Part shown: positions 13,692 through 20,770 of the stretch, in pieces
How positions within the stretch are numbered: position 1 is the stretch's first letter
Layout of the letters: every line of letters begins with the position of its first letter
Assembly: GCF_011751765.2 (NCBI RefSeq)
Contig: NZ_CP061169.1
Location: forward strand, 248,001-312,000
Length of the DNA: 64,000 nt
DNA from: Paramicrobacterium chengjingii
GTDB taxonomy: Bacteria; Actinomycetota; Actinomycetes; Actinomycetales; Microbacteriaceae
Direction of reading: 5' to 3'
The notes under the pieces: model-generated
What the model saw: only the letters and a program-made list of their open reading frames with translations
Databases searched by the model: none
Told to the model about the DNA's origin: nothing
Program-made: the position numbers and the translations under genes

Positions 13692-14348
13692 ATGCGCGCC
13701 AGCGACACGGTGTACCGGGCGCTCCGCGAGGAAATTCTCGACGGCACGATCCCACCGGGAACGACACTCACCGAGGTGGAGCAGTCCACACGACTCGGCT
13801 ACTCGCGCACCCCGGTGCGGGAAGCCCTTGGAAGGCTGACTGCCGACGGACTCGTTGCGGCAGCATCCGCCCGCGCTCTAGTCGTGACCGACGTCGCAGA
13901 CGACGACATCACAGCGCTCTACGAACTGCGTGAAGCACTCGAGGTGACCGCCGCGCAGCTTGCCGCGGCCCGGCGCGACGTGCGCGAATTCGCCGACCTG
14001 CACGAGCAATTCACGCATGCGGCCGAGCTCGTCGACGGCGGGGAACACGAACTGCAGCGCTACTACGACCTCGTGACCGAGCTGGATGCCGCGATCGACA
14101 TCGCCGTGGGCAACAGCTATCTCGAGCAGGCTCTGCGCAGCGTGCGATTGCACTCCGCTCGAGTGCGCCGCAGCGCACGGAGAAACCCCGAGCGACTGCG
14201 TCAGGCGGCATCCGAACACCTCTTGATCTGCCAGGCGATTCGCGACGGCGACGCCGCGCTCGCCGGTCATGCCACTCACGTGCACCTCCGTCTCAGTCGC
14301 GCCAACGCGCTCGCCGCCCCGCCGAATGCGGTGCAGACAGCATCCTGA
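13692..14348 (+). CDS. GntR family (FadR/FCD) regulator of the methylcitrate operon
   Basis: A 218-residue regulator. The winged helix is at about 5-70 ([20 protein letters not shown]) and the helical FCD ligand domain at about 80-205. Its TGA overlaps the first ATG of the prpD frame. It heads the prpDBC genes and has two palindromes upstream, so it most likely senses a propionate-derived acid (for example methylcitrate) and controls this operon. The ligand is inference from context. Confidence 0.87.
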
Positions 14349-14365
14349 TGAAAGGGAACCATCCC

Positions 14366-15889
14366 ATGAAGACCCACAACCTGCGCACTCACAGAAGCGA
14401 CGAGAACCTCGAGCGCACGAGCCAGCTTGCCTGGGCGATCGCCGAGGTCGCCGCAGACGATGTCGAGGTGAGCGACGACGTCAGCGAGATGGTGATCAAC
14501 CGTGTGATCGACAACGCGGCAGTCGCCGCAGCATCCGTCACCCGTGCCCCCGTAGCCGCCGCTCGCGCCCAGGCGCTGACGCACCCGGTGTCGGTGAACG
14601 GTGATGGCTCGACGGTGTTCGGGCGTGAGCCGTCGCGCCGCGTCAGCCCCGAGTGGGCGGCGTGGGCGAACGGCGTTGCCGTGCGCGAACTGGACTTCCA
14701 CGACACATTTCTCTCAGCCGAGTACTCTCACCCGGGGGACAACATTCCCGCGATGGTTGCCGTCGGCCAGCACGTGGGCAGCACGGGGCGCGACGTCGTG
14801 CGGGGTATCGCAACGGGCTACGAGATTCAGATCGACCTGGTGAAGGCGATCAGCCTGCACAAGCACAAGATCGACCATGTCGCGCACCTCGGTCCCTCGG
14901 CTGCAGCGGGGCTCGGCACGATGCTGCACCTCGACCCCGAGGTGATCTTTCAAGCGATCGGACAGGCGCTGCACACCACGACAGCCACCCGGCAGTCGCG
15001 CAAGGGGCAGATCTCAACGTGGAAGGCGCACGCCCCGGCTTTCGCGGGGAAGATGGCCGTTGAGTCCGTCGACCGGGCAATGCGCGGCCAGACGTCGCCC
15101 GAACCCATTTGGGAGGGTGAAGATGGCGTGATCGCCTGGCTGCTCGACGGGCCGGAAGCGTCATATGACGTGTCGCTGCCCGAGCGAGGCGAAGCCAAAC
15201 GGGCGATTCTCGACAGTTACACGAAGGAGCACTCCGCGGAGTACCAGGCGCAGGCCTGGATCGACCTTGCCCGAAAGCTGCACAACGAGCACCCGGAGCT
15301 GCTGGCGCCCGGCGCGATTCGCAGCGTCGTCATCCACACATCGCACCACACGCACTTCGTGATCGGCTCGGGTGCCAATGACCCGCAGAAGTACGACCCG
15401 AGCGCATCGCGCGAGACCCTCGACCACTCGATTCCGTACATTTTCGCCGTCGCGCTGCAAGACGGTGAGTGGCACCACGTGCGCTCCTACGCCCCCGAGC
15501 GGGCAGGCCGCCCCGACACTGTCGAGCTCTGGAAACGGATCACCACCGAGGAAGATCCCGAATGGACGCGTCGCTACCACTCGCTCGACCCGAAAGAGAA
15601 GGCGTTCGGCGGACGCGTCACGATCACGCTCACAGACGGCAGCGTCATCACCGATGAGATCGCCGTCGCCGATGCCCACCCGCTCGGAGCGAGACCGTTT
15701 GCCCGGGCGAACTACATCGAGAAGTTCCGCTCGCTCGCGGAGCCCGTAGTCACGGTAGACGAGATCGAGCGCTTTCTCGACGTTGCGCAGCGTCTTCCCG
15801 AGCTCGAGCCGCACGAGCTGGCAGATCTCACGTTCACCGTCGAACCCGGCGTGCTCGCCTCGGTGCCGACAACGAAGGGACTCTTCTAA
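14366..15889 (+). CDS. prpD: 2-methylcitrate dehydratase, MmgE/PrpD family
   Basis: A 507-residue dehydratase that converts 2-methylcitrate to 2-methylaconitate in propionyl-CoA catabolism. The MmgE/PrpD fold spans almost the whole protein; [17 protein letters not shown] and the His-rich [18 protein letters not shown] are recognisable family stretches. An ATG at 14348 overlaps the gntR stop, but the AAAGGG at 14350-14355 serves the ATG at 14366 with about 9 bases spacing. The stop overlaps prpB (TAATG). Confidence 0.92.
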
Positions 15890-16788
15890 TGCTCTACTCG
15901 CAAATGGATGCCGGTGCCAAGCGTCGCGCGTTTCGAAAGCGCCTCGCGACGGGGGAGCTGCTGCGCTTCCCCGGTGCGTTCAACCCGCTGAGCGCCCGAC
16001 TGATCGAGCGCAAGGGCTTCGACGGAGTCTATATCTCGGGCGCAGTGCTGAGCGCCGACCTCGGTCTGCCGGACATCGGGCTGACGACGCTTACCGAGGT
16101 AGCGACCCGCGCAGGTCAGATCGCGCGCATGACCGAGCTGCCCGCGATCGTCGACGCCGACACCGGCTTCGGCGAGCCGATGAACGTCGCCCGCACCATT
16201 CAGGAGCTCGAGAATGCCGGCTTGTCGGGAACGCACATCGAAGATCAGGTCAACCCCAAGCGCTGCGGTCACCTCGACGGCAAGCAGGTCGTCGACGAGT
16301 CGACGGCGCTGAAGCGCATCCGGGCAGCGGTCGATGCCCGCCGTGACCCGAACTTCCTCATCATGGCGCGCACCGACATTCGGGCCGTTGGCGGGCTCGA
16401 CGCCGCGAAAGACCGCGCGAAGAAGCTCGTGGATGCTGGCGCAGACGCGATCTTCCCCGAGGCAATGCGCTCGCTCGACGAGTTCGACGCCGTGCGCAGC
16501 GCCGTCGACGTGCCGGTGCTGGCGAACATGACCGAGTTCGGCAAGAGCGAGCTGTTCACAACCGAGCAGCTCGCGAGCGTTGGAATCAACATCGTGATCT
16601 GGCCCGTTTCGCTTCTGCGCATGGCCATGGGCGCAGCATCCCGTGCCCTTGACACGCTGAACGACGAGGGCTCGCTCACGACACAGCTCGATGCAATGCA
16701 GCACCGCGCCGATCTCTACGACCTCATCGACTACGAGTCGTATAACCACTTCGACAGCTCGGTGTTCAACTTCGCAGTCGAAAAGTAA
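15889..16788 (+). CDS. prpB: 2-methylisocitrate lyase
   Basis: A 299-residue lyase of the ICL/PEP mutase superfamily cleaving 2-methylisocitrate to pyruvate and succinate. The Mg-binding VDADTGFG and the active-site loop NPKRCGHLDGK are visible; the KRCGH form matches PrpB. The start codon overlaps the prpD stop, and GAAGGG lies about 9 bases upstream. A second in-frame ATG at 15904 lacks a ribosome site. Confidence 0.93.
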   Translation: MLYSQMDAGAKRRAFRKRLATGELLRFPGAFNPLSARLIERKGFDGVYISGAVLSADLGLPDIGLTTLTEVATRAGQIARMTELPAIVDADTGFGEPMNVARTIQELENAGLSGTHIEDQVNPKRCGHLDGKQVVDESTALKRIRAAVDARRDPNFLIMARTDIRAVGGLDAAKDRAKKLVDAGADAIFPEAMRSLDEFDAVRSAVDVPVLANMTEFGKSELFTTEQLASVGINIVIWPVSLLRMAMGAASRALDTLNDEGSLTTQLDAMQHRADLYDLIDYESYNHFDSSVFNFAVEK

Positions 16789-16838
16789 CCCCATCTCGAC
16801 GTAGAGTGCACACGTCACACCTGACGCAAAGGAGCATG

Positions 16839-17951
16839 ATGACCGACACCGACATCAAAAAGGGCCTCGCCGGGGTCGTCGCGGACTACACCGCGATTTC
16901 GAAGGTGAACCCTGAGACGAACTCGCTGCTCTATCGCGGATACCCCGTGCAAGAGCTCGCGGAGTCGTGCAGCTTCGAGCAGGTTGCGTACCTGTTGTGG
17001 AACGGAGAGCTCCCGAGTGACGACGAGCTTGCCGAGTTTGAGAAGGTGGAGCGCGACCAGCGGGCGCTCGAGAGCAACGTGAAGCAGGCGATCGACCTGC
17101 TGCCGACGACGTGCCACCCGATGGACGTGATCCGCACAGCTGTGAGCGTCATCGGCGCGAACGATGAGTCGGCCGAAGACAATTCCATTGAGGCCAACCG
17201 GCAGAAGGCGGTGCGGCTGTACGCCAAGCTGCCTGCGATTGTCGCGTACGATCAGCGACGTCGTCGAGGCGAAGATGCCGTTGAACCCCGCGATGACCTC
17301 GGATACTCGGCAAACTTTCTCTGGATGACGTTCGGCGAAGAGCCGGACCAGGTCGTCGAGCACGCGTTCACCGTGTCGATGATCCTCTACGCGGAGCACT
17401 CGTTCAACGCGTCGACGTTCACGGCGCGCGTTGTGACATCGACTCTCGCCGACCTGTATTCGGCCGTCACCGCTGCCGTGGGTGCGTTGAAGGGTGCCCT
17501 GCACGGCGGCGCGAACGAGGCCGTGATGCATGCGCTTGACGAGATCAAGACGGCGGATGCTGCCGAGCAGTGGCTCGACGACGCACTCGGCGAGAAGCGT
17601 AAGATCATGGGCTTTGGACACCGTGTGTATAAGAATGGCGACTCGCGCGTGCCGAGCATGAAGAAGGCACTCGACTCCCTCGCTGAACACTACGATCGGC
17701 AGGACATGCTCGATCTGTATGAGGCGCTCGAGAGAGCGATGGGTGACCGCAAGAACATCAAGCCGAACCTCGACTACCCGTCTGGCCCGGCCTATAACCT
17801 GATGGGATTCGACACGCAGACGTTCACACCGCTGTTTGTTGCAGCACGCATCACCGGGTGGACGGCGCACATCGCTGAGCAGCTGGCGAGCAATTCGCTC
17901 ATCCGGCCGCTGTCTGAGTACAACGGTCCGGACGAGCGCCACGTCGGGTAG
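16839..17951 (+). CDS. prpC: 2-methylcitrate synthase
   Basis: A 370-residue citrate synthase-fold enzyme condensing propionyl-CoA with oxaloacetate. It starts GLAGVVADYTAISKVNPETN, the short form typical of methylcitrate synthases, and carries EHSFNASTFTARV, LHGGANEAV and GFGHRVYKNGDSR with the active-site histidines. Two adjacent ATG codons (16836, 16839) follow AAAGGAG; the second has better spacing. With PrpD and PrpB it completes the methylcitrate cycle here. Confidence 0.9.
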   Translation: MTDTDIKKGLAGVVADYTAISKVNPETNSLLYRGYPVQELAESCSFEQVAYLLWNGELPSDDELAEFEKVERDQRALESNVKQAIDLLPTTCHPMDVIRTAVSVIGANDESAEDNSIEANRQKAVRLYAKLPAIVAYDQRRRRGEDAVEPRDDLGYSANFLWMTFGEEPDQVVEHAFTVSMILYAEHSFNASTFTARVVTSTLADLYSAVTAAVGALKGALHGGANEAVMHALDEIKTADAAEQWLDDALGEKRKIMGFGHRVYKNGDSRVPSMKKALDSLAEHYDRQDMLDLYEALERAMGDRKNIKPNLDYPSGPAYNLMGFDTQTFTPLFVAARITGWTAHIAEQLASNSLIRPLSEYNGPDERHVG

Positions 17952-18389: not shown

Positions 18390-19625
18390 TCAGCTCGGCC
18401 AGTGCACATGCGTGTCTCGACGTTGATGCGCGAGCCGTGCGCGTTCGACGAGGTCATGGAGCGGCACGCGACCTCGGTAGCCGGCAGCGACGTCGGTGAC
18501 AGTCACGGTGCCATCAGCAATCTCGTCGTCCCCAATGACAGTAAACACAGAATCGCGGCGGTCGCGTGCATCGCGAATGCGCGCACCGAGAGAACCGTCA
18601 TATGCGACGCGAGCGCGCAGGCCCGCTGATGCCGCCGAATCAGCGAGTGCTCGGGCCGCAAGGTCGTGACGATCAGATATCGGAATCACGGCGAGTTGCA
18701 TCGGCGCAATCCAGAACGGCAGGCGCCCCTTGTGATGTTCGAGGAGCGCGGCGGTGACGCGTTCCATGGATCCGACGGTCCCTCGATGGATCATCACGAC
18801 TCGGCTGTCTTCGCCACGGTCATCGACGAAGGTGAGGTCGAACCGTTCAGGCTGATTGAAGTCCAATTGCACGGTGGCGATGGTCTCTTCGTGGCCGGCG
18901 TCGTTCCGGAACTGCAGATCGAGTTTCGGGCCGTAAAACGCTGCCTCGCCCGGTGCTTCGACGAGAACAGCGCCGCGTGAGGCGAGCACCCGGGTGGCGC
19001 CCTCACGAAGAGCATTCTGGGCATCGTTCCACTGCTCGGCGGTGCCGAGCCAGGCATCCGAGTCATCTCGGAGTGAGAGGCGAATGTCATCCACGGGAAG
19101 CCCGAGAATCGCCTGCGCCTCAAGCGCGGCTCGAAGTGCGCGTGCCACTTCGTCCGCCACCTGATCCGGGCGGCAGAACACATGGGTGTCGTCCAAATGG
19201 ATCTCACGCACCCGGGTGAGGCCTGAGACGACGCCGGAGCGTTCGGCACGGAACATCGATGCGAGCTCGTTGAGGCGAAGGGGAAGTTCACGGTACGAAT
19301 GGCGTTCGGCGGCGTAGATGAGCGCATGATGTGGGCAGTTCGCCGGACGCAGCATCACGTCGTCGCCTCCCAGTCTCATCGGGGGGAACATGTCGTCGGC
19401 GAACTTGGCGAGATGCCCTGATCGTTCGAAGAGCTCTCGCTTCCCCAAGACCGGCGAGTGGACCCCGATGCAGCCATCGTTGCGCGCAAGATCCGCGGCC
19501 AGCTTTTGCAGTTCGGAGCGAATGGCGGAGCCCGCGGGTAGCCAGAGGGGAAGTCCCGAGCCCGCAAGGGGGCTCGTCGAGTAAAGCTTCATAGTGCGAT
19601 TGAGATCGCGGTGATCGACGTCCAT
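18390..19625 (-). CDS. thrS: Threonyl-tRNA synthetase paralogue lacking TGS and editing domains
   Basis: A 411-residue class II synthetase, against about 640 for a usual bacterial ThrRS. It starts at the catalytic domain (DHRDLNRTMKLY) and has no N-terminal TGS or N2 editing domain. Motif 2 is present (MFRAERSGVVSGLTRVREIH), and the three Thr-selecting zinc ligands are conserved: Cys in ANCPHHALIY, His in LDDTHVFC, His in VMIHRGTVGSMERV. The anticodon-binding domain follows (PMQLAVIPISDRHD to the end). Strong ribosome site (GGAGG, 7 bases). It is preceded by a Thr-codon leader peptide and an intrinsic terminator, so expression should rise when charged tRNA-Thr is scarce. Probably a second, resistant or stress-induced ThrRS; a full-length copy is not in this window. 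Confidence 0.88.
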   Translation of the reverse strand: MDVDHRDLNRTMKLYSTSPLAGSGLPLWLPAGSAIRSELQKLAADLARNDGCIGVHSPVLGKRELFERSGHLAKFADDMFPPMRLGGDDVMLRPANCPHHALIYAAERHSYRELPLRLNELASMFRAERSGVVSGLTRVREIHLDDTHVFCRPDQVADEVARALRAALEAQAILGLPVDDIRLSLRDDSDAWLGTAEQWNDAQNALREGATRVLASRGAVLVEAPGEAAFYGPKLDLQFRNDAGHEETIATVQLDFNQPERFDLTFVDDRGEDSRVVMIHRGTVGSMERVTAALLEHHKGRLPFWIAPMQLAVIPISDRHDLAARALADSAASAGLRARVAYDGSLGARIRDARDRRDSVFTVIGDDEIADGTVTVTDVAAGYRGRVPLHDLVERARLAHQRRDTHVHWPS

Positions 19626-19668
19626 CTGTTGTACCTCCAGTAATGAGGGAGAACATCCGGGGTGCAAC

Positions 19669-19696
19669 AAAAAGCCCCGGAGTTGAACTCCGGGGC
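19669..19696 (-). terminator. Intrinsic terminator in the thrS leader (attenuator)
   Basis: On the minus strand, GCCCCGGAGTT pairs perfectly with AACTCCGGGGC around a 1-base centre (in practice 9-10 pairs and a small loop), followed directly by TTTTT. It lies 44 bases before the ThrRS start codon and after the leader-peptide stop. The 5' arm can alternatively pair through CCGGAG (19688-19693) with CTCCGG in the leader ORF (19732-19737), which would dismantle the terminator. Confidence 0.85.
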
Positions 19697-19715
19697 GAAT
19701 ATGACTCTGCAGATG

Positions 19716-19790
19716 TCAGAGGCCAGCGGCGCCGGAGCACACCGGCGTCGTCGTGACCTGAATCTGAAACTGCTGCACGGGTAGAAGCAT
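19716..19790 (-). CDS. Threonine leader peptide controlling the thrS paralogue
   Basis: A 24-codon ORF: it begins MLLPVQQFQIQV, then has three consecutive Thr codons ACG (13-15), and ends with a Pro-Val-Cys-Ser-Gly-rich tail before TGA. A stop codon lies upstream in frame, so the ATG at 19790 is the first usable start; its ribosome site is weak. GCCGG right after the Thr codons can pair with CCGGC in the leader (arms 19742-19746 and 19731-19735). Stalling at the Thr codons would cover the first arm and free the second to form an antiterminator. This is the classical ribosome-mediated attenuation layout. It starts 9 bases after the WYL gene, with which it may be cotranscribed. Confidence 0.8.
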   Translation of the reverse strand: MLLPVQQFQIQVTTTPVCSGAAGL

Positions 19791-19798
19791 ATACCCGC

Positions 19799-20770
19799 TT
19801 ACGCTTCAGCGTCGAGAGCGGCTGCGGAGAACTGCTCGGCCTGTTGGCGCAAACGGTGAAGCAGTTCGGGTGGCCCGTCGACGGTATAGGGCAGATGAGA
19901 TGGTATCCAGGTAAGTCCCGAAACGAGGGCATCGATGCTCTCGGCTTCGACAGGCAGAATCGTCACGTTCTCACCGGAGGCGACTGCGTCGCGCGCCCAC
20001 CACCCCAGCTCACGGGAGACAATGTCAAGGGGTGCGGAGATGCGCAGTGTTGTCGAGAGCGACGTCGATCTGAAGCGCACCGAGTCGCGCACGAGCTGCT
20101 CCGACTCACGGTCGTCGAGCGGCCGCGGATCGAATCGAACGCGCGTCAGAAACAGATTGGCTATGCGGTCGACGCGGAAGGTGCGCCAGGCGTCGCGATC
20201 GCGATCCCAGGCGAGCAGATACCACCGCCGCGCGAGAGGGACGAGACGGTGAGGTTCGGCTGATCGGGCGGATGCACGGCCAGCGGCATCCGTGTACTCG
20301 AATCGAACGCGCTCGCTGTCACGGCAGCACAGGGCAAGCAGACCGAGAAGCTCGGCAGCGACAGGAGGACCCTGCTCTGGTGACGTCGTGGCGTGCGATT
20401 GCAGCGCCTCGACCCGTCGTCGCAGCGTGGCGGGAAGCACCTGCTCGATCTTTGCGAGTGCGCTCACCGTTGTGTGTTCGGCGCCCCGAAGCCCGGCGGT
20501 TGCCTGCGAACGAAGTCCGATAGCGATCGCCACGCCCTCATCGTCGCTCAGCAGCAGAGGCGGCAGTCCGGTTCCGGCCTCGAGACGGTAGCCGCCGACG
20601 GCCCCGCGCGTCGCGTCGATGCCGTACCCGAGTTCTCTGAGGCGCTCGACATCGCGACGAAGTGTGCGCCCGCTCACCTTGAGTCGTTCTGCGAGCTCGC
20701 GTGCAGACCAGTGGCGGTGACTCTGCAGCAGCGAGAGCAGATCGAGCGTTCGTGACGTTGTTTCGGCCAT
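19799..20770 (-). CDS. WYL domain transcriptional regulator, YafY/PafC-like
   Basis: A 323-residue regulator. The N-terminal helix-turn-helix is ELAERLKVSGRTLRRDVERL, followed by the GYRLEAG wing; the central WYL domain contains HRLVPLARRWYLLAWDRDRD; a WCX extension ends the protein. WYL proteins sense small ligands or nucleic-acid signals and often control neighbouring genes. It is divergent from the DrrA-like ABC exporter with a dyad between them, and is followed closely by the thrS leader. Confidence 0.87.
   Translation of the reverse strand: MAETTSRTLDLLSLLQSHRHWSARELAERLKVSGRTLRRDVERLRELGYGIDATRGAVGGYRLEAGTGLPPLLLSDDEGVAIAIGLRSQATAGLRGAEHTTVSALAKIEQVLPATLRRRVEALQSHATTSPEQGPPVAAELLGLLALCCRDSERVRFEYTDAAGRASARSAEPHRLVPLARRWYLLAWDRDRDAWRTFRVDRIANLFLTRVRFDPRPLDDRESEQLVRDSVRFRSTSLSTTLRISAPLDIVSRELGWWARDAVASGENVTILPVEAESIDALVSGLTWIPSHLPYTVDGPPELLHRLRQQAEQFSAAALDAEA

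Follow-up and report, generated by a model that had tools for sequence, protein, structure and literature searches.

Classical attenuators, such as those of the trp, his and thr operons and of E. coli pheST, have arms that pair as 1:2, 2:3 and 3:4, with codons for the cognate amino acid at arm 1. The element described here has the same arm layout, but it is probably leaderless and its target is an extra synthetase copy. In Streptomyces, a 2005 survey placed attenuators before trpS and leuS; the part of the survey available to us gives none for threonine and reports no conserved structure for threonine operons (PMC1262725). These are likewise cases of leader-peptide control of an actinobacterial aminoacyl-tRNA synthetase (aaRS) gene, for other amino acids, as described in PMC1262725 and PMC8079986. 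For threonine itself, S. lividans thrL is a short ORF (MKRVRPFLETTPGFVPAR) before thrS SLIV_19410, leaderless by RNA-seq; in the sections of the source at hand, it is a single case with two Thr codons, termination is called unclear and no alternative arms are described (PMC8079986). The same sections give S. lividans metL, a metNIQ leader (MSTTSDRTPATEATTTPGARCMCRRMCAF), which likewise contains TTTPG. The Corynebacterium ilvB-II motif uORF, characterized as an RNA motif, likewise belongs to an attenuator from actinobacteria that has a leader ORF, but its codons are branched-chain ones and it serves a biosynthetic operon (PMC10272879). Anabaena thrS2 also encodes a second ThrRS that is made only under stress and is editing-impaired, but it is under zinc control by the Zur repressor, and its editing domain is present though degenerate (PMC4787780).

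Judged from its sequence, the locus studied here very probably carries a ribosome-mediated transcription attenuator that senses tRNA-Thr charging and controls a second, shortened threonyl-tRNA synthetase (ThrRS). This reading was already that of the original prediction, and with some corrections it is supported by conserved Thr codons, conserved arms and linkage to thrS. The view that attenuation of an aaRS gene is unusual fared less well, given trpS and leuS (PMC1262725) and the S. lividans thrS leader (PMC8079986). Leader attenuation of aaRS genes was thus known beforehand, with trpS and leuS in print, and the S. lividans thrS leader fits the family. S. lividans thrL resembles leaders found in this analysis, e.g., MKRAQPFLTTTPDSVPAR (L104), and probably belongs with them when compared by peptide, the length class of its thrS set aside. 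What is new is that the three-arm layout is conserved, how it is distributed and what it targets: an additional, editing-free ThrRS that differs from the main enzyme at three borrelidin-contact positions. No further thrS leader appeared among the papers listed by our literature searches; Lopatovskaya et al. 2010, which reportedly deals with attenuation of aminoacyl-tRNA genes, may hold thrS predictions, and we do not claim priority.

Anatomy of the leader region

The stretch of DNA analyzed, hereafter the window, comprises 64,000 nt of Paramicrobacterium chengjingii (NZ_CP061169.1, 248,001-312,000), with the element and its gene on the minus strand. On this strand, the leader region follows a gene for a WYL-domain regulator, which stops at 19799, and precedes the short ThrRS gene (18390-19625, starting at ATG 19625), whose 411-aa product was assigned with Pfam, NCBIfam and alignment to S. 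aureus ThrRS (1nyq). Three adjacent plus-strand genes occupy 14348-17951. We take these to be prpD, prpB and prpC (2-methylcitrate dehydratase, methylisocitrate lyase and citrate/methylcitrate synthase).

The leader had been proposed as a 24-codon ORF. This ATG-to-TGA frame exists (19790-19716, minus strand, MLLPVQQFQIQVTTTPVCSGAAGL), but ATG 19790 was rejected as the start, since it falls within TATGCT (19786-19791), the -10-like hexamer of a predicted promoter, and since GTG 19778 of the window is the counterpart of the ATG at which the leader of a sister locus (L007, Microbacterium sp. MPKO10) starts. The leader therefore probably begins at GTG 19778 and ends at the same TGA after 20 codons (19716-19778, minus strand, VQQFQIQVTTTPVCSGAAGL). 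Among the 63 loci compared (see below), 58 leaders start with ATG and 5 with GTG. A TAnnnT box stands 6-8 nt ahead of the leader start in 63/63 loci, a count that is partly circular because starts were picked with the box in view. Farther upstream on the minus strand, a weak -35-like site recognized by sequence only, TCGACG (19810-19815, spacer of 18), matches TTGACA at 4 of 6 positions, and the best matches of relatives mostly reach 3-4 of 6. A Shine-Dalgarno (SD)-like motif precedes the leader start in just 3 of the 63 loci, whereas past the terminator 61 of the 63 have one ahead of a start codon. This scarcity, together with the leaderless state reported for S. lividans thrL, suggests that the leader mRNA is probably leaderless.

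All remaining elements of the predicted layout (leader ORF, arms and terminator) were found on the minus strand where they had been placed. Three consecutive ACG Thr codons occupy 19754-19746, and 2-3 Thr codons stand at this point in 63/63 loci. Hairpin 1:2 joins arm 1, CGCCGG (19747-19742), to arm 2, CCGGCG (19735-19730), in 6 bp at -11.0 kcal/mol, one base pair more than had been claimed; the helix is conserved, and every column of arm 1 is invariant in the alignment rows with a letter there (96 or 97/97). The alternative pairing of CTCCGG (19737-19732) with CCGGAG (19693-19688) was confirmed and extends through an adjoining G-U to a 7-bp antiterminator duplex of GCTCCGG (19738-19732, arm 2) with CCGGAGT (19693-19687, arm 3) at -12.2 kcal/mol. 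By conservation and predicted folds, arm 3 is also the 5' side of the terminator hairpin 3:4, GCCCCGGAG-TTCAA-CTCCGGGGC (19696-19674, -19.8 kcal/mol), which forms at least 7 hairpin pairs in 63/63 folds. Directly after it, also as predicted, comes a TTTTT tract (19673-19669), with 7 T in the 8 nt following the hairpin. A further 43 nt separate this tract from ThrRS ATG 19625, and the ThrRS gene's own ribosome binding site, GGAGG (19638-19634), falls outside the hairpins. The leader stop codon lies 11 nt beyond arm 2. Folding of the 127 nt from 19790 to 19664 beats 200/200 dinucleotide shuffles (z -3.9).

Searched against Rfam, the whole window yielded no family at gathering score. A T-box or another known riboswitch was considered and rejected on this ground, and the 10 weak Rfam matches in 19400-20000 include no T-box. 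The best match in that interval was anti-hemB (30.9 bits vs. a gathering score of 49.5), owing largely to the terminator hairpin.

The proposed switch and its alternative folds

We infer a leaderless start, translation, stalling, termination and a direction of control from the observed anatomy, conservation and thrS linkage, with uncharged tRNA-Thr as the presumed signal. Transcription would start at or beside the first leader codon. When Thr-tRNA is plentiful, the ribosome would pass ACG ACG ACG, reach the stop 11 nt past arm 2 and cover arm 2, leaving arm 3 to pair with arm 4, and RNA polymerase would halt in the T tract. When Thr-tRNA is short, the ribosome would stall on an ACG, covering arm 1 and freeing arm 2, which would then pair with arm 3, block the terminator and allow ThrRS to be made. 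A stalled ribosome covers ~12-14 nt beyond the first base of the codon on which it waits. Counting downstream from that base in the first ACG, arm 1 occupies 7-12 nt and the antiterminator portion of arm 2 starts at 16 nt, a spacing that suits stalling. As in other attenuators, the predicted arms 1:2, 2:3 and 3:4 are mutually exclusive, the leader ORF bears consecutive codons for the amino acid to which the regulated gene is dedicated, and a predicted intrinsic terminator precedes that gene.

The comparison covered 63 loci: the window plus 62 of 80 fetched loci, these 80 being the best among 412 loci coding for a relative. The 18 loci left out (L067-L078 and L080-L085) encode proteins of 35-43% identity, none titled as from an actinobacterium, and the covariance model described below finds no match upstream of the gene in any of them. 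Features of L025, L041 and L064 were assigned by hand. RNAalifold on a MAFFT alignment (A1) gave 10 pairs with little covariation and put the 3' arm of the terminator out of register; pair counts were taken from a model alignment (A4) of 100 rows, fitted to helices 1:2 and 3:4. Its three noise rows (L019 minus, L010 minus and the second L093 match) were retained in the cell counts for 1:2 and 3:4 and in the 2:3 shuffle test, and dropped for the 97-row counts and for tree mapping, which was also done without L101.

In this alignment, 99.8% of 1:2 cells and 99.6% of 3:4 cells are paired. For 2:3, to which the alignment was not fitted, 96.8% of cells are paired vs. 93.0% in shuffles and at most 80.2% in slid versions. 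Six 2:3 pairs are kept in 80 of the 97 rows, five in 11, four in 5 and three in 1. Cells with both sides changed number 40 vs. 17.8 in shuffles, whereas just 2 pairs have both sides changed, a value reached by 198/500 shuffles and hence no excess. At one 2:3 pair, 46 of the 97 rows have U-A and 38 have C-G, but on the ThrRS tree this change comes down to few events (5 in arm 2, 7 in arm 3 and 8 in arm 4), and independent pairs on that tree cannot reach significance for 2:3. The covariation of 2:3 is thus weak support, and a stronger claim was dropped after the shuffle test and tree mapping. The expectation that the arms would be conserved among relatives held for arms 1, 2 and 3 and for the hairpin, while independent covariation of 2:3 was not established.

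The two loop positions adjoining arm 2, just before it and unpaired in 1:2, hold a pyrimidine in 94/95 and 93/95 rows, and the arm 3 positions facing them hold a purine in 94/97 and 93/97. The information in loop columns 41-43 is 0.1-0.3 bits, and column 40 is A in 80/96 rows. In predicted folds without a mask, 1:2 forms in 59/63 loci and 3:4 in 63/63; the other four free folds fall short of 5 pairs in 1:2. When 14 nt from the first ACG are masked so that arm 1 is covered, 2:3 forms in 62/63 predicted folds; with the same mask and a shuffled GC-rich arm 3, 55% of folds still pair arm 2.

Leader codons and competing explanations

A short ORF with Thr codons directly before Pro precedes thrS in 63/63 loci, with three Thr codons in 60 and two in 3. 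A further 29 loci, fetched from the class-wide sample on the strength of the ThrRS protein alone (L122-L150), have a leader with three Thr codons in 29/29. The original prediction had called for a conserved Thr-codon ORF among relatives, and both sets bear it out; an absence of conserved Thr codons or arms had been named as grounds for abandoning the prediction, and in the sequences of relatives both are conserved. The leader stop lies -1 to +17 nt downstream of arm 2 in the 63 loci, apart from one at +33. Arm 2 stands in three frames relative to the Thr codons (42/19/2), and because its bases are kept while the frame shifts, the end of the peptide is free.

Could the region be conserved as RNA alone, with CGACGACGCCGG kept as part of a terminator or small RNA and the Thr reading a coincidence? 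Codons 2 and 3 would fit such a view, being ACG almost invariably (61/63 and 63/63), with codon 3 and Pro overlapping arm 1. An RNA signal also belongs to the attenuator reading: the codon after Pro begins with G in 62/63 loci regardless of residue (D 34, E 11, G 9, V 8; the exception is P), which is the base expected if it is part of arm 1. Codon 1, however, changes mostly synonymously: it is ACG in 45 loci, ACC in 11, ACT in 3 and ACA in 1, the other 3 loci carrying two Thr codons. Across the 97 rows, its first two bases are AC in 96, while its third is G in 78, C in 15, T in 3 and A in 1. We read this pattern as a peptide-coding signal. The ORF, moreover, stays open for 5-8 codons ahead of the Thr run in 63/63 loci, and we consider the RNA-only explanation quite improbable. 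A point against the attenuator reading is that codon 2 is ACG in 61/63 loci though hairpin 1:2 does not require ACG there; ACG makes up 45% of Thr codons in 41 long ORFs of the window; perhaps one tRNA-Thr isoacceptor is sensed.

In erm leaders, stalling is caused by the nascent peptide or an antibiotic, and here too the TTTP peptide, or a drug blocking it, might stall the ribosome. TTP in 63/63 leaders and TTTP in 60 would agree with this. Yet the flanking residues before the Thr run and after Pro diverge widely (the 63 loci encode 53 different peptides), arm 1 explains both Pro and the G behind it, and the regulated gene is that of the cognate synthetase, all of which makes such sensing highly improbable. 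A different proposal, itself compatible with Thr sensing, is that the switch works mainly through Rho-dependent termination or thrS translation rather than intrinsic termination. At least 3 T occur within 8 nt after the hairpin in 55/63 loci, but 8 of the 63 have at most 2, and no uridine-rich sequence was found for S. lividans thrL (PMC8079986). The window itself, with 7 T in those 8 nt and a thrS ribosome binding site clear of the hairpins, speaks against this proposal, which we hold to be improbable. We retain a ribosome-mediated transcription attenuator that reads Thr codons as the preferred explanation.

Linkage to an extra ThrRS and its possible use

The short ThrRS scores 397.7 bits against the NCBIfam thrS cut-off of 383.65. 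Pfam finds only the class II core and the anticodon-binding domain, and the alignment to S. aureus ThrRS matches residues 3-379 of the protein with 241-618, which leaves it without TGS and editing domains. A full-length ThrRS is also encoded in the same genome (C1:1722046-1724019). We checked 31 genomes for the full-length enzyme, 29 with the short gene (G000, G085, G016 and 26/60 others) and 2 without; one full-length ThrRS was found at E≤1e-150 in 31/31. The short ThrRS is therefore an extra copy in the 29 short-gene genomes checked. Within Microbacteriaceae, the family proposed for comparison, relatives proved rare (3/299 genomes at E≤1e-100, our own included), but they are common in other actinobacteria. 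Because of this rarity, and because the best relatives outside the genus (66-67% identity) belong to other actinobacterial families, the data suggest that the short thrS was gained horizontally.

A covariance model was built from 23 leaders, excluding the window and sister locus L007. In the 3.6-Mb genome of P. chengjingii, its single strong match is the window element (E 1.2e-11; next 0.054). In a class-wide sample of 394 genomes, 61 had a short thrS at E≤1e-88, and the element lay upstream of it in 59 of these, in the same orientation, with 28-263 nt between its end and the ThrRS match and with E up to 4.4e-3. In the two remaining genomes a contig end truncates the upstream region: the G579 match begins at base 55 of its contig, and G445 has only 109 nt upstream. 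Conversely, 41 of the 42 model matches at E≤1e-6 precede a thrS gene, with 38 at listed short thrS genes, one at an unlisted short thrS (G386) and two at full-length genes (G529 and G662). The other match (G522, L101) stands at a contig end, where a full element with leader MQRAANTTTPERVPAR is followed by a frame, MTVSSRLRGWRGGGEQ..., that is unlike ThrRS and is cut off. Weak matches are often false: 141/394 genomes have some match at E≤0.01, and 13 inspected at E 9e-6 to 3.5e-4 (L154-L162 and L164-L167) comprised 0 Thr leaders, 2 aromatic leaders and 11 other terminators.

In the two aromatic cases, L158 and L159 (G322 and G359), the leader contains Tyr-Tyr-Trp-Phe codons (L158 has MSCSAYYWFTDGASPVGSRRTR and L159 a close variant) and, together with a terminator, lies upstream of a gene. 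That gene resembles, we presume, DAHP synthase, and these leaders are probably an aromatic amino acid attenuator. Stop codons occur in two short ThrRS matches, with one TGA in L126 (G602) and one TGA plus one TAA in L131 (G426), possibly because the match overruns the gene end or the copy is decaying.

We also considered the element as a general feature of the main thrS and rejected this, as strong matches among 31 full-length loci occur only in G529 and G662; the other 29/31 have no match below E 0.1. In those two genomes, which have no short thrS at E≤1e-88, a TTTP leader precedes the full-length thrS (L152 in G529, L153/L191 in G662), which indicates that the switch can control a main ThrRS.

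Why a second ThrRS would be regulated in this way is a matter for tentative interpretation. One possibility, which we regard as doubtful, is that the editing-free extra ThrRS is an emergency enzyme replacing a blocked main ThrRS, e.g., under a borrelidin-type natural inhibitor. A drug-blocked main ThrRS would lead to uncharged tRNA-Thr, the switch would open and a tolerant replacement would be made; the short ThrRS would otherwise be kept low because it cannot edit Ser-tRNA-Thr. Borrelidin contacts have been listed, and 12 of them, including M411, Q460 and A592, are altered in resistant archaeal enzymes (PMC4389257). Placing contact positions (human numbering) by our own alignment, we compared 96 regulated rows, including full-length L153, with 30 main enzymes. 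Position M411 is A/S/G in 95/96 regulated rows vs. M in 30/30 main enzymes, Q460 is L in 95/96 vs. Q in 30/30, and A592 is G/S in 94/96 vs. A in 30/30. At S386, G387, H388, H391, Y392, F539, Y540, D564, Q566 and L567, the two sets are alike or both variable; L567 (E. coli L489, a known resistance site) was dropped as a weak mark of the paralogue, as Q occurs there in 92/96 regulated rows but also in 13/30 main enzymes. C413, H464 and H590, which we take to be the zinc ligands, are kept in 126/126 regulated and main rows. S. aureus ThrRS shares L at Q460 and G at A592 yet keeps M at M411, and part of the paralogue differences could therefore stem from ancestry. With ObaO there is precedent for a second ThrRS that confers immunity (PMC11252418). 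The ObaO-type change at G463 was looked for and is absent, the window protein retaining YGPK.

Through this analysis, what had been a single remark on a Streptomyces thrS leader becomes a defined RNA element across actinobacteria, which the model finds at nearly every sampled short thrS. This suggests that the second ThrRS copy comes into use only under a shortage of Thr-tRNA, and the question of why many actinobacteria retain a second, proofreading-free ThrRS becomes directly testable.
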